From positions 2,363,769-2,427,768 of the forward strand of contig NC_019954.2 in NCBI RefSeq assembly GCF_000328765.2: 64,000 nucleotides of DNA, read 5' to 3'. The notes beneath the pieces are model-generated. The model worked only from the letters and a program-made list of their open reading frames with translations, did not search any database and was not told the origin of the DNA. Made by a program: the position numbers and the translations under genes. Shown one piece after another: positions 2,363-27,008 of the stretch (position 1 is the first letter of the stretch; every line of letters starts with the position of its first letter). The DNA comes from Tepidanaerobacter acetatoxydans Re1 (GTDB taxonomy: Bacteria > Bacillota > Thermosediminibacteria > Thermosediminibacterales > Tepidanaerobacteraceae).

Positions 2363-3469
2363 TTATTTCTGGAATTGTTGTGAAAGTCCAGCTTTTTGCC
2401 CTGCTTCCGAAAGTTTCTTGCCTATTTTCTGAAGTTCTTCAAGCATTCTTGCTATTGCTTGTGCTGCATTAGCTTGCTCTTGTGTAATTATGTCTATATT
2501 TTTAACGTTTTTGAGTACAGATTCAACCGAATTTTGAAATTTCTTAAGCATTATATTTATTCTTTGAACAGAATTATTGCTTTCATTCGCTAGCTTGCGC
2601 ACTTCTCCGGCCACCACCGAAAAGCCTCGACCATATTCGCCGGCTCTTGCAGCTTCAATAGCCGCATTTAGACCCAGTAGGTTAGTTTGCTGAGCAACAT
2701 GCCTGATTATCTCCAATATTTCCTCAGTATTGCTAACATCCTGAAAAGCTGTCTGTGCGGCACCGGCGGCTTCACTGCTTATTACTGCAAGCTCTTGAGA
2801 TGATGCCGTTAATTCTTCGGTTTCTGCAACCGCATGTTCTATTGCTTTATATATTTCACTAGCATACTGTTGAGTTTGTTGTAAATTTTCCGCTGCAAGC
2901 AATCGTTCCTTTTCCCTTTCTCTTGCAATTTTTGCAGCTTCTTCAATAGCGCGCTTAATGGAAGCTTTGCCTGAATCCAAAAGTTCTGTAGTAAGGCCGT
3001 AGCTCTTAGCTATTTCAGTTGGTTTCAAGCTGCCTACAATTCCCTGAACTCCTAGCGCTGCAAGCTGCTCAATAATTTGTTCTGGTTTAACCTTTTCATG
3101 CCATGGGCGCATGTAAATTTTTACATCCGATATATTAAAGTCCCGCTCACTAATAACACTTGCATGGGTCACAATACCTATTTTTTTAATACCCATATCG
3201 CATATTTTTTCGATGGGAGTTAAAAAATCTTCAATTGTTGATGTGATCTCAACTACAGTCTTGCCATACAATTTATTTAAGGTTTCAGCAGCAGCACCCC
3301 TGCTGATAAAAACATCTATATCATTATAAGTTGAAACCAAATTTTCAAATTCGCTCATTTTACTCACTACTATCGGTAACTCTATGTCCAGTTCCGCAGC
3401 AGCCTCTGCAGCGCTTTTTGCCATTGTCTTTGACACTGCTACAAAAAGGATTGGCTCTATTTTAATCAC
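2363..3469 (-). CDS. Soluble chemoreceptor: PrpR-type sensor domain fused to MCP signalling domain
   Basis: Residues about 1-175 resemble the PrpR N-terminal sensory domain known from propionate-catabolism activators (e.g. [17 protein letters not shown]-type strands, a second lobe with [10 protein letters not shown]). Residues about 195-368 are a methyl-accepting chemotaxis signalling region with the conserved hairpin tip ([19 protein letters not shown]). There are no membrane segments, so the receptor should be cytosolic. The signalling hairpin is short. By family knowledge PrpR_N binds methylcitrate-like ligands; I infer that this protein couples intracellular tri/dicarboxylate levels to motility. 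The start is odd: a perfect GGAGGTG overlaps the GTG at 3469, and an ATA (3458-3460) sits at normal spacing, as if an original ATG had mutated. The gene closes the citrate-lyase locus, after citG-citX. Confidence 0.82.
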
Positions 3470-3547
3470 CTCCCATGAAATTTTATATTAAAAAGTGAAA
3501 TGTTTCAGTAAAAGGTTTAGTAAATGTTAATAGAAAGTTCTTATTAT

Positions 3548-4098
3548 TTATATATATAATTTATTATGAGTACTTATCGGCTGCGAAAATTGCATTTCTA
3601 TTAGTTCTTTGATTTGTTCCACATAAAGATAAATTTCTTGTTCTGAATGGAGTTTTCTGGATACACAAGTTGCGGCAGGGTTTTCACATATAAAACATTT
3701 CCTTGGCGGTAATTCTATATCTCTACGACTAATTGGCTCTCCGGTGCTGTCCATAACATCAATATCCAATATGCGCCCACCTATAGTAGACTCTTCAAAC
3801 TCCACGCAAATTCTTTTAATCTTTTTAGCATCGGTCTTAGCAGATATGAAGAAAGCAGGGCCATCATGCTACGCATGCATCCCTCAAAACAAACCTGATA
3901 GCCACCGGAAATTAACGCCCTGAAAAATTTCTTGCAAAGTTGCAGGAAAAGCATGTAAAATTCCTCATCTTTTCGAAAAATAATAGGGACACATAGGGTA
4001 ATAGTAATTATACAACCGTTCCGCTTTTCCACCAGCTTTTTCCGCGTGTTCCACCGCTGCTCTCTTGCCTCAAGCACTTTCAACAGCTCTATATCCAT
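3548..4098 (-). pseudogene. citX: Apo-citrate lyase phosphoribosyl-dephospho-CoA transferase (CitX), frameshifted
   Basis: CitX attaches the prosthetic group made by CitG to the citrate lyase acyl carrier protein. The N-terminal half is read from ATG 4098 (VLEAREQRW, then ITITL). The C-terminal half is in another frame (DAKKIKRICVEFEE, GGRILDIDV, RKCFICENPAATC). Extending the second frame upstream gives GPAFFISAKTDAKK, which matches the CitX core, so the break is a small frameshift near 3862-3880. The composite is about 180 residues, normal for CitX. It lies about 50 bases after citG in the same direction. Either the lyase is activated by another CitX or the frameshift is a sequence error. 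Confidence 0.8.
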
Positions 4099-4145: not shown

Positions 4146-5006
4146 TTATATGTTTTCTAGCAAATATAGCGTGATAGCTACAGAAAGTAAATCCGCACAC
4201 CCACCCGGACTGATATTGTGCTTTGTAAAATCCTCATCCATCCGAAAAAGCTCTTCTCTACCATGGAGTGACAAAGCACCACCCATGGAGAGTACATTTC
4301 TTACGGAGCTTTTCACATATTCTATTGCTTCGATGCCACATCTGGAAATAACGTTTGTATCCACAACATGCATCATCAGATGTAACAACGCCTGTAAATA
4401 AATATCATTCTTGCTATATTCACCGCTAAGAACAAGTTTTTGCATAACCGGAAGGGCATACTTTCTTACAGAGAAAAAGCCAGAAGCCGCTTCTCCTCGA
4501 ATTCCGCGTATACCGTGGGCAGCATAAAGCTTGAGCCCATTGGTCATGGACGCAGTGTCATTTGTTAATAAAAAATCTTTTTCTGCTGACTTGGCGATTT
4601 TTGCCGAAACATAACATACTGTATTTGCTGAAAAACCTAATCCTTTTTTGTAGCAGTATCCGGCAGCAGCGGCAAGTATTCCCAGAGAAAATATCGCTCC
4701 CTTATGAGTGTTTATACCTTTAGTGGCATTAAACATTGCTTTTTCACATTTGATACCTAAAGGCCGTATCTTGTCAAGACTTTTTTCATTTATTTCATCA
4801 AAACTATACCCTATTTCTGCAAAATTTCTGAAATAGGGTGAAATAGCTGCTATGCTTTCTACAAAAGTAAAAAAGTTCATATCGGTATGAGCACCGCTAT
4901 TTATACGGTCGACCAAACCCGGTTTTGGCGATGTATAAACTTCGGAAAGGAGGGCAGTTGTGCAGCAACTTCCAATCTGTTCATAAATATCTGTTGTTAT
5001 TATCAT
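4146..5006 (-). CDS. citG: Triphosphoribosyl-dephospho-CoA synthase (CitG)
   Basis: CitG condenses dephospho-CoA with ATP to make the precursor of the citrate lyase prosthetic group. The 286-residue protein carries the family signatures SPKPGLVDR near residue 27, SGAHTDMNFFTF and NTHKGAIFSLG, and has the usual length. ATG 5006 follows a GGAGGG site. It precedes citX in the same direction and belongs with citDEF further upstream, forming the assembly half of the lyase system. The call rests on motif recognition and context. Confidence 0.93.
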   Translation of the reverse strand: MIITTDIYEQIGSCCTTALLSEVYTSPKPGLVDRINSGAHTDMNFFTFVESIAAISPYFRNFAEIGYSFDEINEKSLDKIRPLGIKCEKAMFNATKGINTHKGAIFSLGILAAAAGYCYKKGLGFSANTVCYVSAKIAKSAEKDFLLTNDTASMTNGLKLYAAHGIRGIRGEAASGFFSVRKYALPVMQKLVLSGEYSKNDIYLQALLHLMMHVVDTNVISRCGIEAIEYVKSSVRNVLSMGGALSLHGREELFRMDEDFTKHNISPGGCADLLSVAITLYLLENI

Positions 5007-5246: not shown

Positions 5247-6546
5247 TTAACCTAAGATAGTAGAAATAATAATACTCATTACTGTAGAAGCCGCGAGGCA
5301 CATAGGCACTGCTCGAAACATTAACTTGGGAAACATTTCAGCACGATCTTCCTCTGTAGCGCAAGAACCCAATATCAGACTCCCACCAGAAGAAAAGGGG
5401 GAAATAGATGTTGCCTGTGATCCAATAACAACACATGTAAATAAAACCTTAGCTTTAATTCCTGTTGCAGCTGCAAGGGATGGGATAATAGGAAAAAGAG
5501 CAGGGCATACAACTCCCAATGTACTGCTGAAAAAAGACATAATTCCAGCAACAATACACATTACAATGGGTATTAAGAATGAAGGCATGTTGGCTTCCAC
5601 CCAGCCTGAAAGAATATCAATGGTTCCTGCTTTGATTGCCACAGAAATTAACATACCAACACCACAAATCATAATCAGGGTATTCCACGGAACCTTAGCA
5701 ATAACCTCTTTCTCGTCAGCAAGCTTAAGTAGAAGTGCAACAACAGAAAGAACAATCGCAATAAGACCAATATCAATTTTAGAATTAATAAATGCAATGA
5801 CCTTATTATCAGGAAAAATTGAATGCAAAACTGGAGCAGCAAGAGCAATTGCCACCATTGACACAATGAGATAAAGATTACTTCTCTGTTTATGATTTAA
5901 GGGCTCCGGTTCTTTGATTTCAAGATTTTCTCCAAATTCATTCCAACTTTTAGAGAATAACACTAAACCAGATATTACAAGAATGGGAATGATCATCGTA
6001 GCAACAAAAATATTGGTTGAACAAGCAAAAGCAGAATCAGCCAAACCTGCGTCTTCAATCAAGCCTCTAAAGATAATACCACTAGCACTGGTCATAAAAT
6101 TAGCACCTGCCAGCGCACCATAGTTTACAGAAACTGCACCCACAATTTTATTCATACCTGTTTTTTCACAAAGCAGAAGTGTAATAGGAGCTAGTGATGC
6201 CATTACTGTAAAGTAACCCGCGCCTAAGCTGGCAATCAGTGTTGCCGCCAGGAAAATAGCAAAAGGAAGTAATTTTGGTGCTTTGCGGCAGCGATAAAGT
6301 AGAGCCTGAGAAAGCTTTTCCAATGTTCCATTCACAAGCGCAAAATTATAAAAAAGCGAAACAAGCAAAAATGACAAAGAAGATTTTTATGGGCCACATG
6401 TTTATAATTTCTCCGGTCTTTAGGTCTAAAAAAAAGCATCCGATGATGTAAGCAAAGGAAATGGCAAAAAATCCAGTGTTAATCTTAGTCTTATAACCTA
6501 AGGCAATTGAAATGACAATTGCTAATACCACAATTAAACTAATCAT
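5247..6546 (-). pseudogene. MatC-type dicarboxylate carrier, one-base frameshift
   Basis: The N-terminal piece (ATG 6546, after AAAGGAGAT) has the MatC N-domain look: GYKTKINTGFFAISFAY and MWPIKIFF. A second frame continues with FYNFALVNGTLEKL and a long hydrophobic carrier body to 5247. The join is a run of six A residues on the plus strand (6350-6355); one more base would restore a single protein of about 430 residues, normal for this family of ion-coupled dicarboxylate/malonate carriers. About ten membrane segments are visible. Its place between the TRAP/DUF6282 genes and citG suggests uptake of a carboxylate feeding the pathway, or product exchange. As read, the carrier is broken; a homopolymer error is an equally good explanation. 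Confidence 0.78.
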
Positions 6547-7108: not shown

Positions 7109-7993
7109 TCAATCTAAGTCTAAAAGATTATTATAGTTGTAACAGAGCATTGCAGACAGATCTTTCTCAGGCACTCCCATATAATTTAAAGTTTGGGCAA
7201 ACATCCTCATGGTTTCTGGGGCAAGAGTTTTTCTCGGTTGCCCTGTATCACTAGAAATTATCAGATTTTTGCTTCCCACGATATCTATTGTTTCCTTATA
7301 AAGAGATATTGGAATCGGTTTTGGTATTGGACTAAGTGCATTTCCAGCGCAAAATTCCACATATGCTCCCATATCCACGGCTTTTTTTACCTGCTCAACT
7401 GTGCAAGAAGGCGGTGCAAAGAAAGGATGGGTCAAGACAACCTTCTGACATCCGATTTCTCTTGCAGCAGCAATGACCATTAGTGCTTCCTTAGCAGATA
7501 AATGACTTGTACCAATTATTGCATTATACTTCTTAACCATCTCTAATATGGTATATACCTGAGGAATCAGTTTTCCGTTTTCATCTAAAACAGTAATTCC
7601 CTTTATTGGATAATTTGTTACCCCATCACCTTGATGACCATAAGCACCCAATTTTCCGGTTTCATTATAATGAGCAAGCGAATGGTAGGATGGCATCCAT
7701 ACCTGTACAGCACCTAGCTTTAAGGCTACATCGACTGCAGCAGGATTAATCCCACCTGACTGATGATTCAATACCACACCACCGAAAACTTTAATTCCCT
7801 CTACCTGATTTTGAGTGTGATAAGCTCTTACCATAGTTGTATCTGCATGACACTTAAAAACTATTGCACGCATTCCTGCATCCCGACATATCGTTGCAGT
7901 TTCAACATCATTTGCAAGACGGTCAAAAATATCAGGAGAGGTATGAATGTGTAAATCACAAGCCCCTTTAATACTAATTCTCGTTCTAGCCAC
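7109..7993 (-). CDS. DUF6282-family, amidohydrolase-like TIM-barrel protein
   Basis: The 294-residue protein begins with CDLHIHTSPDIFDR, a metal-binding HxH signature typical of amidohydrolase/PHP-like barrels, and later has KVVLTHPFF and IISSDTGQP, which could provide further metal ligands. Family assignment is by resemblance; the substrate is unknown. Its GTG start directly abuts the TAA of the TRAP permease gene, showing tight co-translation with the transporter, so it probably acts on the imported carboxylate or a breakdown product such as a lactone. A decayed relative lies just downstream. Confidence 0.7.
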   Translation of the reverse strand: MARTRISIKGACDLHIHTSPDIFDRLANDVETATICRDAGMRAIVFKCHADTTMVRAYHTQNQVEGIKVFGGVVLNHQSGGINPAAVDVALKLGAVQVWMPSYHSLAHYNETGKLGAYGHQGDGVTNYPIKGITVLDENGKLIPQVYTILEMVKKYNAIIGTSHLSAKEALMVIAAAREIGCQKVVLTHPFFAPPSCTVEQVKKAVDMGAYVEFCAGNALSPIPKPIPISLYKETIDIVGSKNLIISSDTGQPRKTLAPETMRMFAQTLNYMGVPEKDLSAMLCYNYNNLLDLD

Positions 7994-9877
7994 TTAAGCC
8001 ACTCCTTCCTCTTTTTTTTTGCCTGCATTACTACTAATAAAAAAAGAAATACAGCAAATAACCAGTCCTATAATGCTCCACATAAGATTTGGAATTAACA
8101 ATAAAATACCTCCTAAAAACATAGTAGATCTAGCAATTATACTCATATCTTTATTTGTGTAACCAGCTATCGCAATACCAGTAAAAACTACTCCAATAAC
8201 TGCAGTTATGGTTCCTACTATGATATTATATGGGTTACCCATCAACAGCAGAGCTGGATTGTAAGAAAAAGTATATGGAACTACAAAAGCTGGTATAGCA
8301 ATAAGACAAGATAACCATCCTGTTTTCAACCAGTTGGCCTCTGCAATTCCAGAGCTGAGAAATACAGCAGCACAAACAGGTGGAGTAATAGTTGCAAGAG
8401 TTGAAAAGTAAAAAACAAAAAGATGTGCAATTAATGGTGATAATTCAAGAGAAATCAAAGCAGGTGCCAGAATAGCTGCCGCTAGTACATAAGCCGCTGT
8501 AGTTGGAAGTCCCATACCTAAAATAATACAGACACACATTGAAAGAAATAGACATAAAAACATATTATTTTGACCAATACTAACAATTAGATCTGATAAT
8601 TTAACTCCAACGCCCGTCATAGAAATCAATGAAATAGTAATCTGCGAACCAGCCAAAAGAGAAGCCATATCCAAAATACTCGCAGCACCTTTCAGTGACA
8701 CATCAAAGCAAAGCGCCCCAGTATCTTTTGCTGCTCTTGAAATGCTTTTTGTTTTTAGAAAGTAGCAAGCAGCACAGGTGATTATAGCACCAATAGTTGC
8801 GTAAAAAGCTGCTACTGTGACTGTATAAGCCTTTATCAAAAAAAATACAAATATAGCAATAGGGACAAATATAATTGCATATTCTGTAAATAAAATTTTT
8901 TCTTTCATCGCTTCTCCTCGAATTTGTAGCTTTAGAGAAATAAAATGTATCGCTACAAAAGCTCCAAGATAATACAGCAATGCAGGAATAATTGCTGATA
9001 CTGCAATTTTTAAGTATGGCACACTAATTAACTGTGCCATAATAAAAGCTCCAGCTCCCATCATCGGAGGCATAATCTGACCACCTGTAGATCCTACCGC
9101 AGAAATCGCTGCTGCCCACTCGTTAGAATATCTAGATTTTTTCATTAGTGGAATTGTAAAAGTCCCTGTAGCTACTACGTTTGCCATGGCACTTCCAGAA
9201 ATCATTCCAAAAAGGCCGCTTGCGATAAGTGCAACCTTGCCAGGTCCGCCTACAGCTTTACCAGTACAAATCTGTCCTAACTTCACAAATGTCTCCGAAC
9301 CACCTGTTGCTGATAATACAGATCCAAAAATGCCAAACATAGCTAGCATCGTTGCCGAGAGGCCTACCATGGTTCCCCATATACCGTTAGTACTGTGATA
9401 GAAGTTCTGAAAAATATAGTTAAAAGAAAATTGTTGATGACCCCACATGCCTGGGAAATATTCCCCGAAATATGCATATACCAAAAGTATTACTGCCATT
9501 ATAGGAAATGTTAAACCTACAGTTCTTCTGCTGGCTTCTAACACCAAAATTACCAATACAACCGCAAAAAACTTGTCCAATGTGCTTATCCACTGAAGAG
9601 GATCCCATAATATCTTTTGATAGTTTAAAAACATATATAACGTTGATGCAGCCGCCAATATGGAAAGAACAATATCAATGATAGGAACTTTATCTAAATC
9701 CTTACCCTTATGCATTGGTTTTAGAATAAAACATAGTGTAAGTACAAAAAAGAGGTGGACGCTTCGCTGAACGATATCCGGAAAAGCACCAAAACCTGAT
9801 GTATAAAGCTGAAATATCACTAATGAGATTGATAAAGCAGTAACTACCGATTTCCAAAAGCCAGTTAACTTTCTCAT
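7994..9877 (-). CDS. TRAP transporter fused 4TM/12TM permease (TAXI type)
   Basis: At 627 residues with continuous hydrophobic segments, this is the fused DctQ-DctM permease typical of TAXI-type TRAP systems. The N-terminal part (about 1-150) holds the small-subunit-like helices. The rest has family features such as FGIFGSVLSATGGSETF, GGPGKVALIASG, GSTGGQIMPPMMGAGAF and LGMGLPTTAAYV. TRAP systems use ion gradients to import carboxylates captured by an external binding protein. That protein is encoded immediately upstream (10074-11102), so the two form one transporter. The substrate is inferred to be a tri- or dicarboxylate from the surrounding citrate lyase genes. Confidence 0.93.
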   Translation of the reverse strand: MRKLTGFWKSVVTALSISLVIFQLYTSGFGAFPDIVQRSVHLFFVLTLCFILKPMHKGKDLDKVPIIDIVLSILAAASTLYMFLNYQKILWDPLQWISTLDKFFAVVLVILVLEASRRTVGLTFPIMAVILLVYAYFGEYFPGMWGHQQFSFNYIFQNFYHSTNGIWGTMVGLSATMLAMFGIFGSVLSATGGSETFVKLGQICTGKAVGGPGKVALIASGLFGMISGSAMANVVATGTFTIPLMKKSRYSNEWAAAISAVGSTGGQIMPPMMGAGAFIMAQLISVPYLKIAVSAIIPALLYYLGAFVAIHFISLKLQIRGEAMKEKILFTEYAIIFVPIAIFVFFLIKAYTVTVAAFYATIGAIITCAACYFLKTKSISRAAKDTGALCFDVSLKGAASILDMASLLAGSQITISLISMTGVGVKLSDLIVSIGQNNMFLCLFLSMCVCIILGMGLPTTAAYVLAAAILAPALISLELSPLIAHLFVFYFSTLATITPPVCAAVFLSSGIAEANWLKTGWLSCLIAIPAFVVPYTFSYNPALLLMGNPYNIIVGTITAVIGVVFTGIAIAGYTNKDMSIIARSTMFLGGILLLIPNLMWSIIGLVICCISFFISSNAGKKKEEGVA

Positions 9878-10073: not shown

Positions 10074-11102
10074 TTATTCTTTGTATTCTGGCGGGATTAA
10101 TGATGCAGGTACATCATAGCCTTGTTCTTTCAGATATTGCACAGTTCCTGCATGAAGTGGAACAGAAGATCTTAATGATAACTCAAGAATGTTATTTTGA
10201 GCTCCAATCGTATACGCACTCTGCCAAATTTCCTTACCCTCTTCCCACATTGCTTTAATCATCTTATAGCCATCCTCTTGAGTGAGTTTAGTAGTAGTTT
10301 GCGCGCCTTGGATAGTGGCAATTGTCTTCACATCATAATCAACACCTTGATAAGTTCCTGCTGGAATAGTTACTGGAATCAAATAAGGAAACTCTTTAAT
10401 TATCTTTTCAATATCCTCATCAGAAAAATTTATCAGATTAGCTGGCTGGGATGCAATTAACTGCATAACGTAACTATCGTTAATAGGGCCGAGTTTTACT
10501 GTTCCTATGATCTGTCTATTCGCATATGCATCAGCAGCATCCGCCTGGCCAGCCTCAAAATAGTCGGGTGATACACCTAAAAATTCTAAAATTGAAAAGG
10601 TAATAGACGCTGCCGAAGTCCCTGTCCCACCTGGATTAAATTTTTTTCCGTTCAGATCATAGACTGTATTTACACCCGAGGTTTTCGAAACTACAAATTG
10701 CTCAGGTGTAGTTTCGTAGTACCATAGTATCCTAAGGTCTTCATTCGGATCCCCATCAAAAACTCCTACACCATGATAATTCTCGTAGTCAGTACTAGAT
10801 ACGCAATTTCCTACAATAACTTCACCGCTACGGATACGCTTTGCAATATCCACTGCACCTTGTGACTCAGATACAGTAATTTGAAATTCAGGGTATGTTG
10901 TTGAGATTGCTTTTCCAACTGATACCCAATAAGGATAAAGTGCAGAGCTTGCAGGTGGCGCTGCAAATGTTAAATACTGTTTTTTAACAGTTTGAACTGT
11001 TTTTTCACCGCTATCATTGCCGGATGAATCTTTTTTTGAGCAGCCTGCCAACAAAGTAAATACCAGCACTATTAATAATAACAATGCAATTTTCTTTTTC
11101 AA
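10074..11102 (-). CDS. TAXI-family TRAP transporter substrate-binding lipoprotein
   Basis: The protein starts with a lipoprotein signal peptide (lipobox LLAGC, Cys21), followed by a Ser/Gly-rich tether and a TAXI-type binding domain (TFAAPPASSALYPYWVSVG near the start; FNPGGTGTSAASITF in the middle; 342 residues in total). It should be anchored to the outer face of the membrane and hand ligand to the fused permease encoded next. Known TAXI proteins bind acidic compounds such as glutamate or other carboxylates. Given the operon, a citrate- or aconitate-like ligand is inferred. Confidence 0.93.
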   Translation of the reverse strand: MKKKIALLLLIVLVFTLLAGCSKKDSSGNDSGEKTVQTVKKQYLTFAAPPASSALYPYWVSVGKAISTTYPEFQITVSESQGAVDIAKRIRSGEVIVGNCVSSTDYENYHGVGVFDGDPNEDLRILWYYETTPEQFVVSKTSGVNTVYDLNGKKFNPGGTGTSAASITFSILEFLGVSPDYFEAGQADAADAYANRQIIGTVKLGPINDSYVMQLIASQPANLINFSDEDIEKIIKEFPYLIPVTIPAGTYQGVDYDVKTIATIQGAQTTTKLTQEDGYKMIKAMWEEGKEIWQSAYTIGAQNNILELSLRSSVPLHAGTVQYLKEQGYDVPASLIPPEYKE

Positions 11103-11127
11103 CTTAACATCTCCTCATAATTAATAA

Positions 11128-12399
11128 TTATTTTATTAACACATGCGGTATAATATTTACCGCACGCGGTAATACGATGATTTTCTCAGGAGCTTTTTCA
11201 CAACAAGTTTTATCAATTGCTGTCTGCAAATTAGGAGCCCATTCCAACATCATTTCGTTCAGGTCTTTTTCCTTAATGTTTTCTGTAACGATAATGACTC
11301 TCCCTTTTGTCATGGCTCTTGCATACATAAAAGCTTTGTTGCTTCCGACACTATAGCCTTCTCTTTTGAATCTTTCAATTACCTCCTGTGGGGTTTTTGC
11401 TTCTACCAACCACTTGCGAAACACGCCTTCTCCAATACCTTCCTCTGCATTAGCAACAAGTATATAGGTGCAATTCGGCTTTCCAAGTGGTTCTGCAACA
11501 GATAATGCCTTTTGTGCTTGATACAGATTACAATCTCTTGGATAACCTCCAGGGCTGGCAATTACGATATCTGCCAGACCACTTATTTCGACTCTGCTAA
11601 CTTTTTTACATATTTCCACACCCTTTGCATGGGCTTGTTCAATTTCACCGGCAACAAATGCTATATTTTGCTTATGGGGGTCTTGAACGGCGTTTACCAT
11701 AAACTTTACATTTAGTTTCTTCGCAGCCTCTAAAGCAACCTCGTGAAAAGGGTTTCCATAAATGAACCCCATAGAAGGTTCAAAAGGTCTTATGGGCAAA
11801 GAATGATGTATTTTTAAGGTATCTATTCCGGCCACACCCGGAACTATGCTTTTTCTCCCTCCACTGTATCCAGCAGTATGATGTGGTGATATTAATCCAG
11901 TAGTAATGCAGAATGTGCACTGAGCAACCAGTTTATTTACATAAATTGGAACATCTGAAGTCGTATTACCTATATAAACGATATTCTCTTTGTCCATGCA
12001 GTCGTGAACAACTACTTCAAATCTTGACTTATACTCCGAACCGATAATTTGTGAAATTTCTTCTTCAGTAGTTTTTCTATGGCTGCCAGTCGCTACAATG
12101 AATTTAATATGATCATCCATGACCCCCGCCGACTTTAGTCTGTTTATCACCTCCTTTACAATTGTTCTAGTTGGTCCAGGCCTTGTATGGTCATTAACTA
12201 CAATAACTACTTGATCATTCTTTGTGACAAGGTTCTCAACCCTATCAGAACCAATGGGATTGTCCATAGCTTCTTTTATCAGTCGCTCTTCACTTATATT
12301 CACTTTGGGCACATCTACATCAATTACCTGCAACTCGATATCATCACTGATAAAAGCCTCTTGAGCAGTTTCGCCATAAGGAACGCTAATCTTAGCCAC
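11128..12399 (-). CDS. LarA-family nickel-pincer racemase/epimerase homologue
   Basis: This 423-residue protein belongs to the LarA (lactate racemase, DUF2088) family. It has NDHTRP near residue 69, ATGSHRKTT, and HHTAGYSGGRKSIVPG, where LarA carries the lysine that holds the nickel-pincer cofactor plus a nearby His pair. GTG 12399 follows AAAGGAGA, 12 bases after the citF stop, so it is part of the citDEF operon. LarA relatives racemise or epimerise 2-hydroxyacids by hydride transfer. Here the likely substrate is a hydroxy-carboxylate of the citrate/malate kind, which is inference. No larB, larC or larE cofactor genes lie in the window. Confidence 0.85.
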   Translation of the reverse strand: MAKISVPYGETAQEAFISDDIELQVIDVDVPKVNISEERLIKEAMDNPIGSDRVENLVTKNDQVVIVVNDHTRPGPTRTIVKEVINRLKSAGVMDDHIKFIVATGSHRKTTEEEISQIIGSEYKSRFEVVVHDCMDKENIVYIGNTTSDVPIYVNKLVAQCTFCITTGLISPHHTAGYSGGRKSIVPGVAGIDTLKIHHSLPIRPFEPSMGFIYGNPFHEVALEAAKKLNVKFMVNAVQDPHKQNIAFVAGEIEQAHAKGVEICKKVSRVEISGLADIVIASPGGYPRDCNLYQAQKALSVAEPLGKPNCTYILVANAEEGIGEGVFRKWLVEAKTPQEVIERFKREGYSVGSNKAFMYARAMTKGRVIIVTENIKEKDLNEMMLEWAPNLQTAIDKTCCEKAPEKIIVLPRAVNIIPHVLIK

Positions 12400-12411
12400 G
12401 GTAATCTCCTT

Positions 12412-13950
12412 TCAAACTTTCTTAATTACATCAATTACGCTGTTGTCTCGATAATAAACCAGCCCTACAATCTTTTCACCATATTCAACAGGCTTTGGTT
12501 TGCCTACAATTTGCTCCGAAATCTCTTTCAGTTCTTCAATAGTATGTAGTTTTATTCCTACTGACGTCAGCTTTTGAATCAGATCCTTACGTAATGGGTT
12601 TACTGCAGCACCATATTCTGTAACAAATACATCAACTGTACTGCCCGGAGTTACAATAGTATTAACTTTATCAAGAACTGTAGGAATTCTTCCTCGAATA
12701 AGGGGTGCTACTACTATGGTCATTTTTGCCCCTGACGCTGTATCCGGATGGCCGCCTATTGCACCTCTTATAACTCCGTCTGAGCCTGTTAAAACATTTA
12801 CGTTAAAATTCGTATCAATCTCTAGTGCGCTAAGGACTACCATATCCAATTGATCTACTGCCGAGCCTTCTATGCCTGAGCCTGCATAATGATGACCACT
12901 TACAACACAGTGAAAAGGATTCTCTCTAGCGCTCCTTACAGCTTCAAGATCAAAGTCCTGAACATCTAATAACTTTTTAATAAGACCTTCTTCGTGAAGT
13001 TTGGCTATAGCACCGGTAATCCCTCCTAGTGCAAAACTTGCTTTAATACCTTTTTTAAGCATTTTATCGTGTAAAAAGCGTGTCACTGCAAGAGAAGCGC
13101 CACCGGTTCCTGTTTGGAAAGAGAAGCCGTTTTTAAAGTAACCTGAATGCTCCATTATATCTGATGCCATCTTAGCTATTTTTAGTTCTCTAGGATTTGT
13201 TGTATATCTGGTTGCACCACTTACTATCCCTTTTGGGTCGCCTATTTCATCTACTTTAACAATATAGTCTACATTAATTTCCGGTATGGCACAGGGAGTA
13301 TTAGGATATGGTACGATATTATTTGTAAGAATTATTGTCTTATCGGCATACTCAGCATCGGGCATGGCATATCCAAGGGAGCCACAGTCATAGGAATTGT
13401 CACCATCTCTGTTGAATCCGTTGACATTACCTGCACAGTCACAGGAAGGCGCCCCCAGAAATGCTACATCAATTTTTAACTCCCCGGAAGCAATGGCATA
13501 AGCCCTGCCACCATGCGAACGAAATATAACAGGGATATCCATTAGGCCTGCTGATACGGCATTTGCGAGTTCTCCACGAAGTCCACTGGTTTCTATACGT
13601 TTTACAACACCGCTTTTAATATGTTCAATCATTGGTGCGTGACAGTGGGTTAACGAACTGGCTGCTACTACCATATCTTTAAAGCCCATTTTCGCTAAAG
13701 TTTCAAGTACCATATTGACTATGTAATCGCCATTGCGGAAATGATGATGGAAAGATATTGTCATGCCATCTCTAAGGCCAGAAAGTTCAATTGCCTTTTC
13801 TAAGGATTCTACAATTTTATTATTACGTCCATTTGGAGATTTTAGTTTTGCTTCAAAAGGAGTCCCACTATGACGCTTGCCGTCGAATGCTTTTAATTCG
13901 CCTATTCCTTCGATGTATTGCGGAAACTCAATCCCTAATATGTTTCGCAT
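12412..13950 (-). CDS. citF: Citrate lyase alpha subunit (citrate CoA-transferase)
   Basis: CitF moves the acyl-carrier-bound acetyl group onto citrate, making citryl-ACP for cleavage by CitE. The 512-residue sequence has the standard length and family features such as FHHHFRNGDYI, SGLRGELANAVSAGLM, FRSHGGRA and FQTGTGGASLAVT. Its ATG overlaps the citE stop as TGATG, so citE and citF are translationally coupled. The gene order citD-citE-citF is the usual one. Confidence 0.97.
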   Translation of the reverse strand: MRNILGIEFPQYIEGIGELKAFDGKRHSGTPFEAKLKSPNGRNNKIVESLEKAIELSGLRDGMTISFHHHFRNGDYIVNMVLETLAKMGFKDMVVAASSLTHCHAPMIEHIKSGVVKRIETSGLRGELANAVSAGLMDIPVIFRSHGGRAYAIASGELKIDVAFLGAPSCDCAGNVNGFNRDGDNSYDCGSLGYAMPDAEYADKTIILTNNIVPYPNTPCAIPEINVDYIVKVDEIGDPKGIVSGATRYTTNPRELKIAKMASDIMEHSGYFKNGFSFQTGTGGASLAVTRFLHDKMLKKGIKASFALGGITGAIAKLHEEGLIKKLLDVQDFDLEAVRSARENPFHCVVSGHHYAGSGIEGSAVDQLDMVVLSALEIDTNFNVNVLTGSDGVIRGAIGGHPDTASGAKMTIVVAPLIRGRIPTVLDKVNTIVTPGSTVDVFVTEYGAAVNPLRKDLIQKLTSVGIKLHTIEELKEISEQIVGKPKPVEYGEKIVGLVYYRDNSVIDVIKKV

Positions 13951-14861
13951 CAGTTCTCCCCCCTTTTTTGTCTATTGTAAATACCGGCAGCTTCTGCCAG
14001 CTCAAGAGTGCGTTGTGCTCTGATTACTACTGGCTTATCAATCATCTTACCATCAAGGCTGATTACACCAAGACCTTTGGATTCTGCTTCTTTTAATGCC
14101 TCAATAACTCTTTCGGCATGGTCTATTTCCTTTTGTGTCGGTGTAAATATTTCAATAACAGGCCCAATTTGTCTGGGATTAAGCACCGATTTTCCATCAA
14201 ATCCTAAATCCTTAATTAGCTGTACCTCCTTGCGGAAACCATCCTCATCATTTACATCGGAAAACACCGTATCCAGTGCTGCAATACCCGCTGCTCTAGA
14301 AGCTATCACAATTTGTGTTCTTGCGGCAAAAAGCTCTATCCCAGAAGGGGTTCTTGAAGTTTTGAGGTCAGTAACATAATCTTCTGCACCAAGTGCAATT
14401 CCTATGAGGCGATTACTTGCTGTAGCAATTGAATATGCGTTAATGACCCCCAATGCACTCTCAATAGCAGCCATCATGCCTGTACTACCGACTTCCATAC
14501 CATATTTTATCTCACATTCAGTAATATACTTATCTACTTCTATAACATCCTCTGCAGTTTCTGATTTCGGCAGTCTGATTACATCGACACCGGCTTTAAC
14601 CATGGCATCAATATCAGCCTTACCAAATTCAGTATTCAAAGGATTTATACGAACCACTTTCTCTACATCACCATAATTTAGAGTTGTTAGAGCATTATAA
14701 ACAAGAAATCTGGCTGCATCTTTTTCTGATAATTTTACTGAATCTTCCAGGTCAAACATCAAAGAATCTGCACCATATAAGTGCGCATCTTTCATCATGC
14801 CAGGATTGTTACCGGGAACAAACATCATAGTTCTTCTAAGTCTTTCTTTTTGATATGCCAT
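13950..14861 (-). CDS. citE: Citrate lyase beta subunit (citryl-ACP lyase)
   Basis: CitE cleaves citryl-ACP to oxaloacetate and acetyl-ACP. The protein shows the HpcH/CitE fold signatures RRTMMFVPGNNPGM, DSLMFDLEDSV, IRLPKSETAEDV, LGAEDYVTDL and GFDGKSVLNPRQI. I start it at ATG 14861 (MAYQKERLRR), one base past the citD stop and at the family's usual N-terminus. An in-frame start at 14900 would lie inside citD. Length is then about 303 residues, as expected. Confidence 0.96.
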   Translation of the reverse strand: MAYQKERLRRTMMFVPGNNPGMMKDAHLYGADSLMFDLEDSVKLSEKDAARFLVYNALTTLNYGDVEKVVRINPLNTEFGKADIDAMVKAGVDVIRLPKSETAEDVIEVDKYITECEIKYGMEVGSTGMMAAIESALGVINAYSIATASNRLIGIALGAEDYVTDLKTSRTPSGIELFAARTQIVIASRAAGIAALDTVFSDVNDEDGFRKEVQLIKDLGFDGKSVLNPRQIGPVIEIFTPTQKEIDHAERVIEALKEAESKGLGVISLDGKMIDKPVVIRAQRTLELAEAAGIYNRQKRGEN

Positions 14862-14862
14862 G

Positions 14863-15156
14863 TTATTCACCATCACCCCACTTGTAGTCTGTAGATTCAA
14901 TTGCTCTATAGTATGCCGCCATGACCCTGGCTTTTATTGTGCAATCCAGTGCACCTCTGTCCTTTGCAACTACCTTTGCATTTCTTACGCCTAAATCCAT
15001 AAGGGTATGTTTTATGACTTCACTTATATGTTCACCATACTGTTTTTCAACAGTGCTGTTAAGATCAATCTCGATTCCATTATCACCCTCTTCTAAAATT
15101 ATCATAATGTCACCGGACTCCAATGTTCCAGCAGAAGCAGTGTTTTTTATTTGCAT
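14863..15156 (-). CDS. citD: Citrate lyase acyl carrier protein (gamma subunit)
   Basis: CitD is the 97-residue carrier that bears the phosphoribosyl-dephospho-CoA group. The motif TASAGTLESGDI holds the serine to which the group is attached in this family. The C-terminal RGALDCTIKARVMAAYYRA is typical. It heads citDEF and is separated from the aconitase gene upstream by a 285-base gap with a large palindrome. Confidence 0.96.
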   Translation of the reverse strand: MQIKNTASAGTLESGDIMIILEEGDNGIEIDLNSTVEKQYGEHISEVIKHTLMDLGVRNAKVVAKDRGALDCTIKARVMAAYYRAIESTDYKWGDGE

Positions 15157-15347
15157 TCAAACATGCACAACCTTTCAGTAATTTTGTTTGCATTTTGAAG
15201 TATGAAAAATGCTGATTAAGAAAAATTTTTCTAACTTTAATAAATAAAATTAATCATTAATATTTATAGGCTGTTTTACTTAGATTGTTACTTATTCTCT
15301 TAAATGCAAAGTTTAACGTTTTGTATGTAGTCGGTTAATTAGAACCT

Positions 15348-15387
15348 TTGTATTGGTTGGAAATTTTAAAATTTCCAACCAATACAA
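15348..15387. repeat. Perfect 40-bp palindrome between aconitase and citD
   Basis: Twenty bases from 15348 (TTGTATTGGTTGGAAATTTT) are followed at once by their exact reverse complement to 15387, with no spacer. Transcribed, it would form a very stable hairpin about 55 bases after the aconitase stop and 190 bases before citD. No T tract follows on either strand, so it is not a standard intrinsic terminator. A processing or stabilising hairpin, an operator, or a mobile palindromic element are all possible. The rest of 15157-15441 is AT-rich with no gene seen. Confidence 0.7.
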
Positions 15388-15441
15388 TTAGGGGGAAAAA
15401 CGTGGATGAGGAATGAAGTTATATTAGTTGTATTTTAAATC

Positions 15442-17391
15442 TTAATAATGTTTATTTATCTTGCTTTTATTCTGAATGAATCTTAGTCTACCACCTGCTA
15501 TAATCAGCTCAACTTCTCTGTCAGTTAGATCTACAATTGTTTCAAAAAACGTGTTTTTTGTTTTATTTAGGATTTTAACTTTTTTGGTCCTAATCTGACT
15601 GATTGCATCTTCAATATAGAGACAATCACCTTGTTCAATACTGTCGTAAGCAGCACTGTCAGCAAATAATAGAGGTATTACGCCATGGTTAACCAGATTA
15701 TTTTTATGTATTCTTGCCATCGATTTAGCTATAACTGCCTTTACGCCCAAGTACATTGGTGCAATTGCAGCATGTTCTCTACTCGAACCTTGTCCGTAAT
15801 TTTCCCCGCCTATGATAATGCTCTTTTTATACTCCTTTGCCCTTGAATAAAAGCCCGGATCAATACGGCCAAAGGTTATCTCGCTTATCGCAGGAATATT
15901 GGAACGTAAAGCTGAAAATTGAGCACTGGCAGGAATAATGTCATCAGTGGTAATGTTATCGCCAAACTTTGCAACAACCCTAGCTTCAATTATTTCCTCC
16001 ATCGGATCATTGACTGGCATTGGCTTAATGTTCGGCCCCCTTATTATTTCAATGTTTTCGTTAGTTTCTATTGGATTAATAACCATATTATCGTTAATAA
16101 TATATTCTCGTGGTTCTTCAATATTTTCCAAGAGCTTAGAGTCAATAACATCTCTCGGATCTGTAATATAACCTGTTAATGCCGTAGCAGCAGCCACTTC
16201 CGGGCTAGCAAGATAGAGGTAAGCATCTAGAGTGCCACCTCGACCTCTAAAATTTCTATTGGAGGTTCTCAAAGAAATTCCCCCAGTATTCGGTGCTTGC
16301 CCAATACCAACACATGGGCCACAACCGCATTCCAACACCCTGGCACCGGAAGCAACGAGCTTAGAGATAATGCCGTCTCTCAAAAGCATGCTAAATATTT
16401 GGCGACTTCCCGGAGCAATGCTTAAACTGACATCATCATGTACAACCTTGTTTTCCATTATCTTTGCGGCTTTTACAAAATCAGTATAAGAGGCATTTGT
16501 GCAACTTCCAATAAATACCTGATTCACTTTAACATCTTTAAGCTCAGATACTTTTACCACATTATCAGGCATGTGAGGCTTTGCAACCATAGGTTCTAAT
16601 GTATTCAAATCAATTTCTATAACACCATCATAGTAAGCGTCTTTATCAGGATATAATTCAACCCAATCTGCTTCTCTTTTCTGATGAGTAAAGAATTTAT
16701 GAACTGTTTCATCGCTGGGAAATATTGACGTGGTTGCACCCATTTCCGCACCCATGTTAGCAATAGTTGCCCGGTCATAAACGCTTAGACAATCAAGGCC
16801 TTGACCAGTATATTCAAAAACCTTGCCTAGACCGCCTTTTACGCCGATCCTTCTAAGCATCTCTAAAATAATGTCTTTCGCAGATACTCCGCCTCTTAGT
16901 TTACCTTTTAAGTTTACATTTATAATATACGGCATCTTTATATATAGCGGTTCCCCTGCCATAGCCATTGCTACATCCATTCCGCCCGCACCAATAGAAA
17001 GCATGCCAATAGCTCCTCCTGTAGGAGTATGACTATCTGATCCCAGCAGTGTTTTGCCAGGTATTCCGAAACGTTCAAGATGAACAATATGGCAAATACC
17101 GTTGCCGGCTCTTGAAAGATAAAGACCATACTTTTTTGCAATCGACTGCAAATACAAATGATCATCCATATTTTTGTTATCAGTATAAAGGAGGTTATGG
17201 TCAATATAGCTTACAGATTTCTCTGTTTTTACCCTGGGAATGCCTAAGGTTTCAAAAGCCAAATATGCCTGTGTACCTGTAACATCATGCGTTAGAGTAT
17301 GGTCAATTCTAATGGCAACTTCTTCACCCGCAACCATATTACCAGAAATATAATGATCCTCTATTATTTTTCTTGTCATGCTTTTATTCAT
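15442..17391 (-). CDS. Aconitate hydratase (aconitase, ~650-residue type)
   Basis: Aconitase interconverts citrate, cis-aconitate and isocitrate using a 4Fe-4S cluster. The 649-residue protein has the cluster cysteines in FIGSCTNASY and CGCGPCVGIGQAPN, the LLGSDSHTPTGGAIG motif, and the swivel domain near the C-terminus (GENYGQGSSREHAAI). Its length fits the short anaerobe-type aconitases that unite the large and small LeuC/LeuD-like domains. ATG 17391 follows an AGGTGAG site. It lies between the YbhJ-like hydratase and citD, linking aconitate to citrate lyase. Confidence 0.93.
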   Translation of the reverse strand: MNKSMTRKIIEDHYISGNMVAGEEVAIRIDHTLTHDVTGTQAYLAFETLGIPRVKTEKSVSYIDHNLLYTDNKNMDDHLYLQSIAKKYGLYLSRAGNGICHIVHLERFGIPGKTLLGSDSHTPTGGAIGMLSIGAGGMDVAMAMAGEPLYIKMPYIINVNLKGKLRGGVSAKDIILEMLRRIGVKGGLGKVFEYTGQGLDCLSVYDRATIANMGAEMGATTSIFPSDETVHKFFTHQKREADWVELYPDKDAYYDGVIEIDLNTLEPMVAKPHMPDNVVKVSELKDVKVNQVFIGSCTNASYTDFVKAAKIMENKVVHDDVSLSIAPGSRQIFSMLLRDGIISKLVASGARVLECGCGPCVGIGQAPNTGGISLRTSNRNFRGRGGTLDAYLYLASPEVAAATALTGYITDPRDVIDSKLLENIEEPREYIINDNMVINPIETNENIEIIRGPNIKPMPVNDPMEEIIEARVVAKFGDNITTDDIIPASAQFSALRSNIPAISEITFGRIDPGFYSRAKEYKKSIIIGGENYGQGSSREHAAIAPMYLGVKAVIAKSMARIHKNNLVNHGVIPLLFADSAAYDSIEQGDCLYIEDAISQIRTKKVKILNKTKNTFFETIVDLTDREVELIIAGGRLRFIQNKSKINKHY

Positions 17392-17439
17392 ATCTTCGTA
17401 CTCACCTCACTTATCTTAATAACTACTTATCATCATTAT

Positions 17440-19740
17440 TTATTGTTTCATTTTATAGTAATTAATTAAGCAACCTGCTGCAATAATGTGTTTTTCATCC
17501 TCTGTTAGATCATCTACAGAAACAGTAAACTCAGTAATTTCATCACTGACTACATATGCTTTAATTTCTGCTTTGCCCTCGAATATAGCGTTTCTTAAAT
17601 CGGGAATGAATATATAGTCATCCTTCTTAAATGGAGGCTCTTCTTTAATGATAAACGGAATCATACCCCAGTTGATAAGATTTGAACGATATCGTTTAGT
17701 TGCATACTCTCGAGCTATGTTGGCCCATCCGCCAAGAACTCGCTGGCAGGAAGCCGCCTGCTCCCTTGCTGAGCCATCACCTGGTTTGTTAGCGAAAATT
17801 GTGCTGCCAATTCCTATATTCTTGGGGTCAATATTTTCGAATCCCTTTATTGTCCTAATTTTGTCATAAGCTTTCTTGATTTCTTCTGAAATGGTGCTTG
17901 GATCCTTTCCACTTTCTCTTTCGATTTCATATCTTTGCACTTCTTTAGCCTTATTCACATATGCCGGATCTTTCCTGGATAAGGTAAACTCTGCTAGTCT
18001 CATCGGATTTGAACGGTAAGATGAAGTTTCTCCCGATGGAATAAGCTCATCAGTTGTTGTGACAGGATCTGTAATATAACTTACAACCTTTAAAAGTAAG
18101 TCATTCGTTAGACTGGGAATTGTCGGCCAGTCTTTGATGTTGGGACCGAATTTTAGCTCCGTATCAGGTTCTGCCTTGCCAAAACCATTAAATACACGTT
18201 TATCATATATACTTTTATTAAAAAAGTACTTGGGTTTGGTATAGTTTGCATCTATTTCTGTTGCAGCCGTCAGCTTGCCTTTATTTATAGCAGTAGCTGC
18301 AATTGAGCGTGCATCCATAAGTGCAACGTATGAAAGCTGACCTTCTGTAGGTTTAGAACCTTCGCGATTAGGGAAGTTCCTGGTTGTGTGTCTTATAGAA
18401 AGTTCCTGGTTGGCAGGCGTATCTCCAGCACCAAAGCAGGGACCGCAGAATGCGGACCTGACAATTACACCGGCATTCATTAATTTTTCTATGGTCCCGT
18501 TTTTAACCATTTCTACATAAGCTGGTTGGCTTGCGGGGTAAACGCTCATTTTAAATGTACTATTGCCGATTGACTTTCCATCTATTATATCTGCAATGTC
18601 AACAATGTTATCATAAATACCGCCTGCGCAGCCTGCTACAATACCCTGATCTGCATAAACTTGTCCGTCTTTTATTTTGCTCACAAGATCTAATTTTATA
18701 TCGGGATTATCAAATTGCTTGCTGCCTTCTTTCTGCACATGATTCATTATTTCGATGGGGTTTGCCTTTAGCTCCTCGATGGTGTATATATTGCTGGGAT
18801 GAAACGGCATCGCAATTGTTGGCTTGATTTTAGAAAGGTCTACATAGACAAGGCCATCGTAATATGCTACATCTTGTGCTTCAAGTTTTGAATAGTCTTC
18901 TGCTCTGCCATGAATGCTGTAATATTCTTTTACTTTTTCATCCGTCTGCCATATAGAGGACCAGCAGGTAGTTTCGGTTGTCATTACATCGATACCGTTT
19001 CTGTATTCTACACTTAGATTATGGATACCATCACCGATGAACTCCATAACCTTGTTTTTTACATAACCGTTTTTATAAACACTTCCTACTATGGTAAGTG
19101 CGACATCCATAGGCCCTACGCCTTTTTGTGGCTTACCGGTTAAGTAGATGCCTATAACCTTTGGTCTTGCAATATCATATGTCTTTCCTAGAAGTTGCTT
19201 AACCAGCTCACCGCCGCCTTCACCTACACCCATTGTTCCAAGTGCACCATATCTTGTATGGCTATCTGAACCAAGAATCATTGTACCGCATTTACTTATT
19301 ACTTCTCTATTATAAGCATGAATTACCGCTAAATGGGGAGGTACATAAATGCCCCCGTATTTTTTAGCCGCAGAAAGAGCAAACATGTGATCATCTTCGT
19401 TTATAGTGCCTCCAACAGCACAAAGACTATTATGACAGTTGGTCATAACAAATGGAACCGGAAATGTTTGCATACCGCTAGCTCTTGCTGTCTGGATTAT
19501 ACCAACATATGTAATATCATGGGCAGTTAAAGCATCAAATTTAATCTTCAGATTCTCTGTATCATCAGAGACTACATCATGATGATTTACAATTGAATAT
19601 GCTATGGTTCCCTTTCGTGCTTCCTCTTTTGATACAGCCATGCCAGTTTTATTTTTGATTATTGCAGTGGCATTTTTATCATCGCAGATTATTTCTTTTT
19701 TATTTAAAAGAAAAACGCCGGTATCATATAATTTAATCAT
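17440..19740 (-). CDS. YbhJ-like aconitase-superfamily hydratase
   Basis: At 766 residues, this resembles the E. coli YbhJ branch of the aconitase superfamily, whose reaction is not established. Iron-sulphur cysteines are present in GIVAGCAGGIYD and AFCGPCFGAGDTPAN, the substrate loop in LGSDSHTRYGALGTMG, and a C-terminal swivel domain around GDGSAREQAAS. Its presence beside a standard aconitase suggests a different substrate, for example a methylated or otherwise altered citrate or aconitate. It is followed 48 bases later by the aconitase gene. Confidence 0.85.
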   Translation of the reverse strand: MIKLYDTGVFLLNKKEIICDDKNATAIIKNKTGMAVSKEEARKGTIAYSIVNHHDVVSDDTENLKIKFDALTAHDITYVGIIQTARASGMQTFPVPFVMTNCHNSLCAVGGTINEDDHMFALSAAKKYGGIYVPPHLAVIHAYNREVISKCGTMILGSDSHTRYGALGTMGVGEGGGELVKQLLGKTYDIARPKVIGIYLTGKPQKGVGPMDVALTIVGSVYKNGYVKNKVMEFIGDGIHNLSVEYRNGIDVMTTETTCWSSIWQTDEKVKEYYSIHGRAEDYSKLEAQDVAYYDGLVYVDLSKIKPTIAMPFHPSNIYTIEELKANPIEIMNHVQKEGSKQFDNPDIKLDLVSKIKDGQVYADQGIVAGCAGGIYDNIVDIADIIDGKSIGNSTFKMSVYPASQPAYVEMVKNGTIEKLMNAGVIVRSAFCGPCFGAGDTPANQELSIRHTTRNFPNREGSKPTEGQLSYVALMDARSIAATAINKGKLTAATEIDANYTKPKYFFNKSIYDKRVFNGFGKAEPDTELKFGPNIKDWPTIPSLTNDLLLKVVSYITDPVTTTDELIPSGETSSYRSNPMRLAEFTLSRKDPAYVNKAKEVQRYEIERESGKDPSTISEEIKKAYDKIRTIKGFENIDPKNIGIGSTIFANKPGDGSAREQAASCQRVLGGWANIAREYATKRYRSNLINWGMIPFIIKEEPPFKKDDYIFIPDLRNAIFEGKAEIKAYVVSDEITEFTVSVDDLTEDEKHIIAAGCLINYYKMKQ

Positions 19741-19782
19741 TAATATTTCGTCCTTTCACATTATAATAATCATAATAATTTG

Positions 19783-20952
19783 CTAGTTAACTGTACCTAT
19801 TCTTTTCAATGTTTCTAACAAGTAATCAGTAAACTCCGCAGCAGAGGCATCGGTTTTTTTAGTTGTTACCACGACTTTACGCTCAGTTATAGTGCAAATT
19901 TCCAATGCTTTGTCAAGTTGGAAAGATTTATCATTATATCCTATATGCGATAATAACATTGCAACTGCTCTTAATAAGCTGCAAGGATTGGCATAATCTC
20001 CTCTTCCATTATTAATTAGATCAGGAGCCGTACCATGAATTGCTTCAAACACAGCGTATCTTTTCCCGATATTTGCACTGCCTGCTGTACCCAGGCCACC
20101 TTGAATTTCGGCAGCAATATCTGTAATAATGTCACCATATAAATTAGGCAGCACAAAAACCTCTAAACCCTTATTAAATTCAGGATTGTTCAACTTCGCT
20201 GCTGTTGCGTCTACGTATCTTTCCTGGATATCAATATCCGGATATTCTTGACCAACCTTTCTGACTGCTTTTATGAAGTTGCCATCAGTTAATTTCACTA
20301 TATTTGCTTTAGTTACTACGGTAATGTTTTTCTTGCCGTTATTTTTTGCATATTCAAAAGCAGCTCTGGCAATTCTATCGGAACCTTGTTTCGTTTCTAC
20401 TACAAAATCTATTGCAAGATCTTCATTAACCTGGATACCTTTACTTCCAAGAATATATGCTCCTTCTATGTTTTCTCTGAAAAAAGCCCAATCTATATTC
20501 TTTTCCGGTATTTTTACAGGCCTTAAATTGGCAAATAAGTCTAATTCGCGTCTTAAGGTCGCATTAGCACTGGGAAGGTTCGGCCAGGGGTCAGTAGCTT
20601 TTGGGGTAACGGTTGGACCCTTAAGAATAACATTACATTTTTTAATTGCTTCAAGCACATCATCCGGAACTGTCTGCATTTTTGCTGAGCGGTTTTCAAT
20701 AGTCAACCCGTCAATAATCCGAATTTCTATCTTTTTTTCAGCAATTTCTTTTTGTAACAAATGATTTAACACCCTAAGCGCTTGTTTCATAATAATAGGT
20801 CCAACACCGTCACCCGGTAAAATTCCGATAATCACCTTGTCAAGTTTTTTGTAATCTATAAAATCATCCTGGCTTTTCATCTTTTCAATTCTTTTAAGTT
20901 CGGAATCAATCAGGGACTCAAATTTTTTTAAGGCTTCATTTATATAATTCAT
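19783..20952 (-). CDS. Isocitrate/isopropylmalate dehydrogenase-family enzyme
   Basis: The protein (389 residues) shows the beta-decarboxylating dehydrogenase signatures: IIGILPGDGVGP near residue 41, the substrate-binding LRRELDLFANLRPVK, and NLYGDIITDIAAEIQGGLGTAGSANIG near the active aspartates, then FEAIHGTAPD. A 35-40 residue N-terminal extension precedes the usual start. Activity on isocitrate, homoisocitrate or methylisocitrate cannot be separated from sequence alone. In this operon it would provide an oxidative route from isocitrate-like acids to a 2-oxoacid. Confidence 0.9.
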   Translation of the reverse strand: MNYINEALKKFESLIDSELKRIEKMKSQDDFIDYKKLDKVIIGILPGDGVGPIIMKQALRVLNHLLQKEIAEKKIEIRIIDGLTIENRSAKMQTVPDDVLEAIKKCNVILKGPTVTPKATDPWPNLPSANATLRRELDLFANLRPVKIPEKNIDWAFFRENIEGAYILGSKGIQVNEDLAIDFVVETKQGSDRIARAAFEYAKNNGKKNITVVTKANIVKLTDGNFIKAVRKVGQEYPDIDIQERYVDATAAKLNNPEFNKGLEVFVLPNLYGDIITDIAAEIQGGLGTAGSANIGKRYAVFEAIHGTAPDLINNGRGDYANPCSLLRAVAMLLSHIGYNDKSFQLDKALEICTITERKVVVTTKKTDASAAEFTDYLLETLKRIGTVN

Positions 20953-21015
20953 ATTATTTATCTACCTTTCTATAATTAGATAACACATGTGCATATATAA
21001 ATCGCTCAAAACCTT

Positions 21016-22146: not shown

Positions 22147-22182
22147 ACATTTCCCTCCTTTTGCTCGACTAAATATCCCTCA

Positions 22183-23331: not shown

Positions 23332-23341
23332 TTTGCACCTC

Positions 23342-24697: not shown

Positions 24698-24845
24698 ACT
24701 TTTTTCAACCCCTCGCTAATTATCTGTTAGAATATTATAAGTTCGTAAATACAGATAATTTAGTTAAATGTTTATATTTGTATTATTATATTGTTTTAAA
24801 ATCATCATTGTATTATTTCTAATTTTATTTTATAATATGTGTATG

Positions 24846-24865
24846 ATATAGGCAAATACCTATAT
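24846..24865. promoter_or_regulatory. Candidate LysR operator in the divergent promoter region
   Basis: ATATAGG-N6-CCTATAT is a perfect hyphenated palindrome that also fits the T-N11-A form used by LysR-type proteins. It is in the 24698-24921 gap between the dehydratase operon and the LysR gene, about 57 bases from the LysR start. I infer autoregulation and control of both directions. Confidence 0.45.
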
Positions 24866-24921
24866 TTTTATAGCCCATATAACTTTTAGTTATACCCAAT
24901 CGAAGGAGATGATGATTTACA

Positions 24922-25869: not shown

Positions 25870-25910
25870 CAAGTTAGCCTGTAACTTAATTTTATTACAT
25901 TAGGGGTGAA

Positions 25911-26981: not shown

Positions 26982-27008
26982 ATATTTTAAGATGGGTAGG
27001 TTTTGGGA

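Follow-up and report, generated by a model that had tools for sequence, protein, structure and literature searches.

A single soluble chain encoded by Tepidanaerobacter acetatoxydans Re1 carries both a PrpR_N sensor domain and an MCP signalling domain. The gene is located at positions 2363-3469, on the minus strand, of the 64,000-nucleotide stretch of DNA analysed here (the window). It is listed with a GTG start and encodes a predicted soluble chemoreceptor of 368 amino acids. Only two Pfam domains scored above cut-off in this protein: PrpR_N (PF06506) at residues 26-188 (positions 2906-3394, minus strand; 99.8 bits against a cut-off of 29.1, E 1.7e-28) and MCPsignal (PF00015) at residues 243-355 (positions 2405-2743, minus strand; 98.9 bits against 34.6, E 4e-28). 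The AAA+ and HTH parts of the sigma-54 activator PrpR gave no Pfam match above cut-off in the fusion. No membrane helix was found, the highest 19-residue Kyte-Doolittle mean being 1.07, and a transmembrane receptor was rejected on this value. These searches bear out the sequence-only reading of this DNA, which had proposed a PrpR_N domain joined to an MCP domain with no membrane helix.

An AlphaFold2 model built from 43 aligned sequences (mean pLDDT 92.0, pTM 0.69) contained a two-lobe alpha/beta domain followed by a single long, helical hairpin. In the model the sensor fold begins at about residue 5, and the last PrpR_N helix is continuous with the MCP hairpin (helix 168-367). VIA-align matched residues 1-186 of the modelled sensor to 2q5c (Z 18.5, 183 residues aligned) and residues 3-187 to 2pju, which is E. 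coli PrpR (Z 18.1). The N-terminal part, the point on which the sequence-only reading could have failed, is therefore PrpR_N by fold as well as by profile score. The short hairpin matched 1qu7, the soluble 3g67 and the YfmS-CheW model 9a72 in the same way (Z 14.3-14.7). In sequence searches the PrpR_N half found 2q5c at E 1.6e-4, and the MCP half matched many MCPs. The 18-residue hairpin tip (positions 2636-2689, minus strand), which we take from E. coli Tsr to be the region that contacts CheA and CheW in known MCPs, includes a 15-residue stretch that is exact in 14 of 15 fusions.

The fusion architecture is rare, but not unique. Fifteen complete fusions were found in 14 genomes (one of which, G451, has two), so that a single-species oddity was rejected, and conservation of the two-domain architecture in relatives with 42-69% full-length identity indicates that the fusion did not arise by chance. 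Carriers include Desulfosporosinus lacus, D. acididurans, D. sp. FKB, Ca. Dichloromethanomonas elyunquensis and the metagenome-assembled Clostridiaceae bacterium UBA7994. Full-length fusions were present in at least 6 of 398 genomes sampled from the phylum, the window genome included; this count is a lower bound, as five candidates were scored per genome at E ≤ 1e-30. The survey of frequency that the sequence-only reading had called for returned a low figure. A search of 22 genomes of the same order, with the window protein as query and a limit of E ≤ 1e-25, found no carrier other than the window genome itself. The 26 genomes of its class contained 42 PF06506 matches, and the window protein was the only fusion among them; 34 of the 42 were in frames of at least 600 amino acids, consistent with the earlier statement that PrpR_N normally sits on sigma-54 activators. 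Fusions were found in 12 of 82 genomes in the class of another carrier, G146 (one of them interrupted by a contig end), and in 2 of 22 genomes in the order of L093, the nearest relative. When contigs were scanned, the PrpR_N half alone returned nothing and an alignment used as query returned six loci. These surveys could miss a PrpR_N domain joined to an unrelated MCP. No paper on a PrpR_N-MCP fusion, or on PrpR_N with chemotaxis, was found in a literature search that covered few of the subscription journals.

All 15 fusions were included in phylogenetic trees of each half. The PrpR_N halves formed one clade with respect to 29 regulators (support 99/97), and the MCP halves also formed one clade (support 100/100). 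Because both halves were monophyletic, there was probably a single fusion event, for which vertical inheritance combined with lateral spread would be the simplest subsequent history; separate fusions in different lineages are disfavoured by the same result. The inner order of the fusions disagreed between the two trees and was poorly supported in the MCP tree. The 29 rows designated sigma-54 were chosen by length (>560 amino acids), and GAFTGA and a Walker-type motif were present in 28 of them, L048 lacking GAFTGA. Next to the fusion clade in the PrpR_N tree was a sigma-54 regulator from the family of the window genome (L024), which is surrounded by what by eye is a sugar-type ABC transporter, with no clue to a carboxylate.

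The MCP clade of the fusions nests among short soluble MCPs, a group set apart from ten other MCPs of the window genome (support 95/98). The nearest relatives of the fusions in this tree carry Diacid_rec, the sensor domain of CdaR, a label based on two tested proteins (L014 and L065) of 13, and others carry a Rossmann-type domain, a label based on a GFO_IDH_MocA match in one of six (L028), with the other five assigned by similarity. In the careful MCP tree neither type was cleanly monophyletic, and one protein, L031, was kept outside the groups in this comparison. The short soluble MCPs L025, L026, L028, L029, L071 and L073 have an N-terminal NAD-binding Rossmann-like domain and are possibly redox or metabolite sensors.

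The fusion gene closes a long co-directional array on the minus strand that encodes aconitases, CitDEF, a racemase, transporters, CitG and CitX. In this and the other neighbourhoods part of the genes were named by profile matches and the rest by eye. Closest to the fusion are a frameshifted citX (3548-4098), citG for triphosphoribosyl-dephospho-CoA synthase (4146-5006, above cut-off) and a MatC_N/CitMHS-type carboxylate transporter (5247-6377). These are followed by genes for a DUF6282 protein (7109-7993), a TRAP transporter fused permease (7994-9877), a TAXI-family TRAP solute-binding protein (10074-11102) and a LarA-type nickel racemase (11128-12399) nearest to the LarAH6 malate racemase (493 bits, just below the cut-off of 500). 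Citrate lyase is encoded by citF (12412-13950), citE (13950-14900) and an open reading frame for a 97-residue acyl carrier protein named citD-like by eye (14863-15156). Further upstream in the array are genes for an aconitate hydratase (15442-17391), a second aconitase-family hydratase (17440-19740), a member of the isocitrate/isopropylmalate dehydrogenase family (19783-20952, below all cut-offs), two PrpF/OMA-tautomerase-like isomerases (21016-22146 and 22183-23331, below cut-offs) and a weakly matching MmgE/PrpD-like protein (23342-24697), all on the minus strand. The citrate lyase ligase gene, citC (27003-28040), is on the plus strand. PrpF of Shewanella isomerises trans-aconitate to cis-aconitate (PMC5690661), and on this basis the window cluster could turn aconitate via citrate into acetate and oxaloacetate. 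The region from 10074 to 27000, where genes for a pair of aconitases and a pair of PrpF-like isomerases accompany those for citrate lyase and a LarA resembling malate racemase, perhaps serves the anaerobic use of trans-aconitate.

Comparison of the loci of the other fusions pointed to a link with local catabolism in some of them. In L093 (68.6% identity over 360 residues) the genes citF, a LarA-type racemase, tctC, a tctB-like gene named by eye, tctA, the fusion, citG and an intact citX all run in one direction; its transporter type differs from that of the window, and the association with citrate lyase is common to both. The fusion of G430 follows genes for galactarate dehydratase, tartronate semialdehyde reductase and glycerate kinase, though its contig assignment is less sure because the assembly is 79% complete with 6% contamination. 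The fusion of G489 is about 2 kb past a galactarate-type gene set, and three genes for small membrane proteins intervene. No obvious catabolic partner genes were found beside the remaining 11 of the 15 fusions. With two fusions in citrate-lyase clusters and two within or next to galactarate clusters, the sensor probably binds whichever carboxylate its gene neighbourhood handles; for the window protein this would be citrate or aconitate. The four cluster-linked fusions are suggestive evidence on the ligand, not proof.

The sensor sequence itself showed a related pattern. ISRG-[GA]-T, a feature that emerged from this comparison and has no published definition, was present in 29 of 29 regulators, whereas the window protein has lost its threonine and reads ISRGAAAE. 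The residues after ISRG tracked the gene context of the fusions: GT in G430, RT in G489, AA in the window protein and L093, and LM in the eleven others. In addition, R121, P122 and W123 were nearly invariant in the fusions (14, 15 and 14 of 15, respectively). The altered motif marks the window PrpR_N as a diverged member of its domain family, so 2-methylcitrate, the signal listed for PrpR (PMC4987338), is not to be assumed for it. That compound was also unsupported as an evident ligand by the window cluster, which lacks prpB; the best match to the prpB model in the window genome is located outside the cluster and falls below the cut-off (318 bits against 354), so that 2-methylcitrate may yet be the signal. 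PrpR_N alone carries no implication of a tricarboxylate.

We favour, with somewhat better than even confidence, the explanation that the protein is a cytosolic chemoreceptor in which PrpR_N binds the carboxylate handled by neighbouring genes, here of the citrate/aconitate type, and the short MCP hairpin joins CheW and CheA and biases swimming. The intracellular acid would bind in the PrpR_N cleft and move the lobes, and the shared helix would pass this change to the hairpin tip, which would join CheA/CheW signalling and so control CheA and bias swimming; the receptor presumably acts as a dimer. The machinery for such a response is encoded in the window genome, a single contig of 2.76 Mb with 13 MCPsignal matches (the fusion included), three CheW-domain matches (one of them within a CheA-like protein), a full CheR match and two flagellin-N matches, the second of which by eye is probably a hook-associated protein. 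A strict methylation motif was present in 12 of the 15 fusions and absent from the window protein, L093 and L104, and adaptation of the window receptor may therefore be weak; the window protein has a near-motif at residues 214 and 221. Counting against the chemoreceptor explanation are the 11 of 15 fusions without carboxylate neighbours, the changed ISRG motif, the missing strict methylation motif, the odd start codon and the broken citX; a PrpR_N with bound ligand was not found either.

The sequence-only reading had the cell swimming in response to internal tricarboxylate. This idea is plausible, and gene context favours it more than that reading had cited: it is strengthened by the citrate-lyase and aconitase genes, by the tripartite tricarboxylate transporter beside the fusion of L093 and by the presence of CheA, CheW, CheR and flagellin, and weakened by the galactarate-associated relatives, the eleven partnerless fusions and the changed ISRG motif. 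Most studied chemoreceptors face outward. The sensor of a metabolic regulator, on a receptor that travels with pathway genes, would couple taxis directly to how much of a substrate the cell contains. Metabolism-dependent taxis could then be tested with a defined protein, and the fusion offers a small soluble handle on PrpR_N ligands, which are poorly known so far.

Other explanations of the protein were weighed against the cytosolic carboxylate receptor. It may be a true cytosolic receptor whose PrpR_N domain senses another common metabolite, or only dimerises, rather than responding to the acid of the neighbourhood. The change of ISRG-[GA]-T to ISRG-AA or ISRG-LM in 13 of 15 fusions fits this, as do the new and near-invariant R121-P122-W123, which look as if meant for a different ligand or contact, and the fact that most Desulfosporosinus-type fusions stand alone. 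However, the PrpR_N fold is wholly retained at high model confidence, and the window and L093 have citrate-lyase neighbours in common despite their differing transporters, which makes this reading unlikely, if one to be taken seriously. A role outside motility, in which the PrpR_N half pairs with the PrpR_N of sigma-54 activators and tunes transcription, or the MCP half scaffolds another pathway, appears improbable. Two intact long PrpR_N proteins (L001 and L002) are encoded elsewhere in the window genome, and the sister of the fusion PrpR_N clade is a sigma-54 regulator of the same family, but the residues of the hairpin tip are conserved and a related short soluble protein, YfmS of Bacillus subtilis, has a model with CheW in the PDB. 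Moreover, CheW was found in every fusion genome examined, with a match under all 16 handles of fusion-bearing genomes (two repeat the same genomes, and G489 is not among them).

The remaining alternative, gene decay at the window locus with little or no protein made, is very improbable. A Shine-Dalgarno-like GGAGGTGA (3466-3473, minus strand) overlaps the GTG called as the start. At the position where 12 of the 15 aligned fusions have ATG and one has GTG, the window protein and L093 have ATA (3458-3460, minus strand, in the window; 5401-5403 in L093), and the strong GGAGGTGA is located at a normal distance from ATA in both. The citX gene nearby is frameshifted, being divided into open reading frames at 3548-3805 and 3781-4098 with the break between residues that align with positions 112 and 114 of L093 CitX, which is unbroken, and a broken PrpR is encoded in the same window. 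The odd start codon and the frameshifted citX beside it indicate that the locus may be decaying. Against this, the frame of the fusion is open at full length with all domains, and the frameshift in citX could be a sequence error rather than a mutation. Since L093 has the same Shine-Dalgarno-ATA arrangement together with its intact citX, the arrangement predates any local decay, and ATA is a possible conserved non-standard initiation codon in both genes.

With the carboxylate-sensing receptor as the preferred reading, the fusion can be compared with known systems. It shares its sensor family and fold with PrpR and the other PrpR_N-containing sigma-54 activators and differs from PrpR in having an MCP hairpin in place of the AAA+ and DNA-binding parts. 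It resembles the Diacid_rec-MCP proteins, which are also soluble (about 285 amino acids) and combine the same short cassette with a transcription-regulator sensor of the CdaR type; the sensor differs, being PrpR_N in the one and Diacid_rec in the other. One of these, of 283 amino acids (L014, at L086 9605-10453), is a parallel case: its gene neighbours encode a CdaR-like regulator, a GntP-like transporter and a glycerate kinase. YfmS and HemAT of B. subtilis and the 3g67 protein of Thermotoga maritima (presumably TM14) are likewise soluble chemoreceptors, and the hairpin matches 9a72 and 3g67, but these proteins have a different sensor domain or none. HemAT is a model of cytosolic sensing (PMC7542364), and soluble receptors form cytoplasmic arrays in R. 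sphaeroides and V. cholerae (PMC3964821), a precedent that involves other receptors without PrpR_N. Of 1274 Diacid_rec proteins in a published table, 30 are MCPs (PMC4822843).

Taken together, the sensors on this cassette suggest a broader reading, held tentatively and at slightly less than even confidence, in which one short soluble MCP cassette was joined to sensor parts taken from various transcription regulators or from enzymes (PrpR_N, Diacid_rec and Rossmann domains) and the products can travel in catabolic clusters, so that a pathway and taxis to the internal level of its acid were gained together. Examples would be the window and L093 (citrate/aconitate), G430 and G489 (galactarate) and the Diacid_rec-MCP beside CdaR.

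The first half of another PrpR_N domain is encoded at 36657-36926 on the minus strand of the window. It ends in a stop and is separated from a sigma-54 activator open reading frame (35357-36571). Compared with L001, residues 103-196 (about 94) are missing and the activator resumes in another frame; the earlier proposal that this second sensor serves transcription is not supported. Beyond this locus, the region from 40900 to 63900 has genes that by eye resemble mobile or defence functions, including a helicase, a TIR-like protein, a HerA-like ATPase and a kinase.
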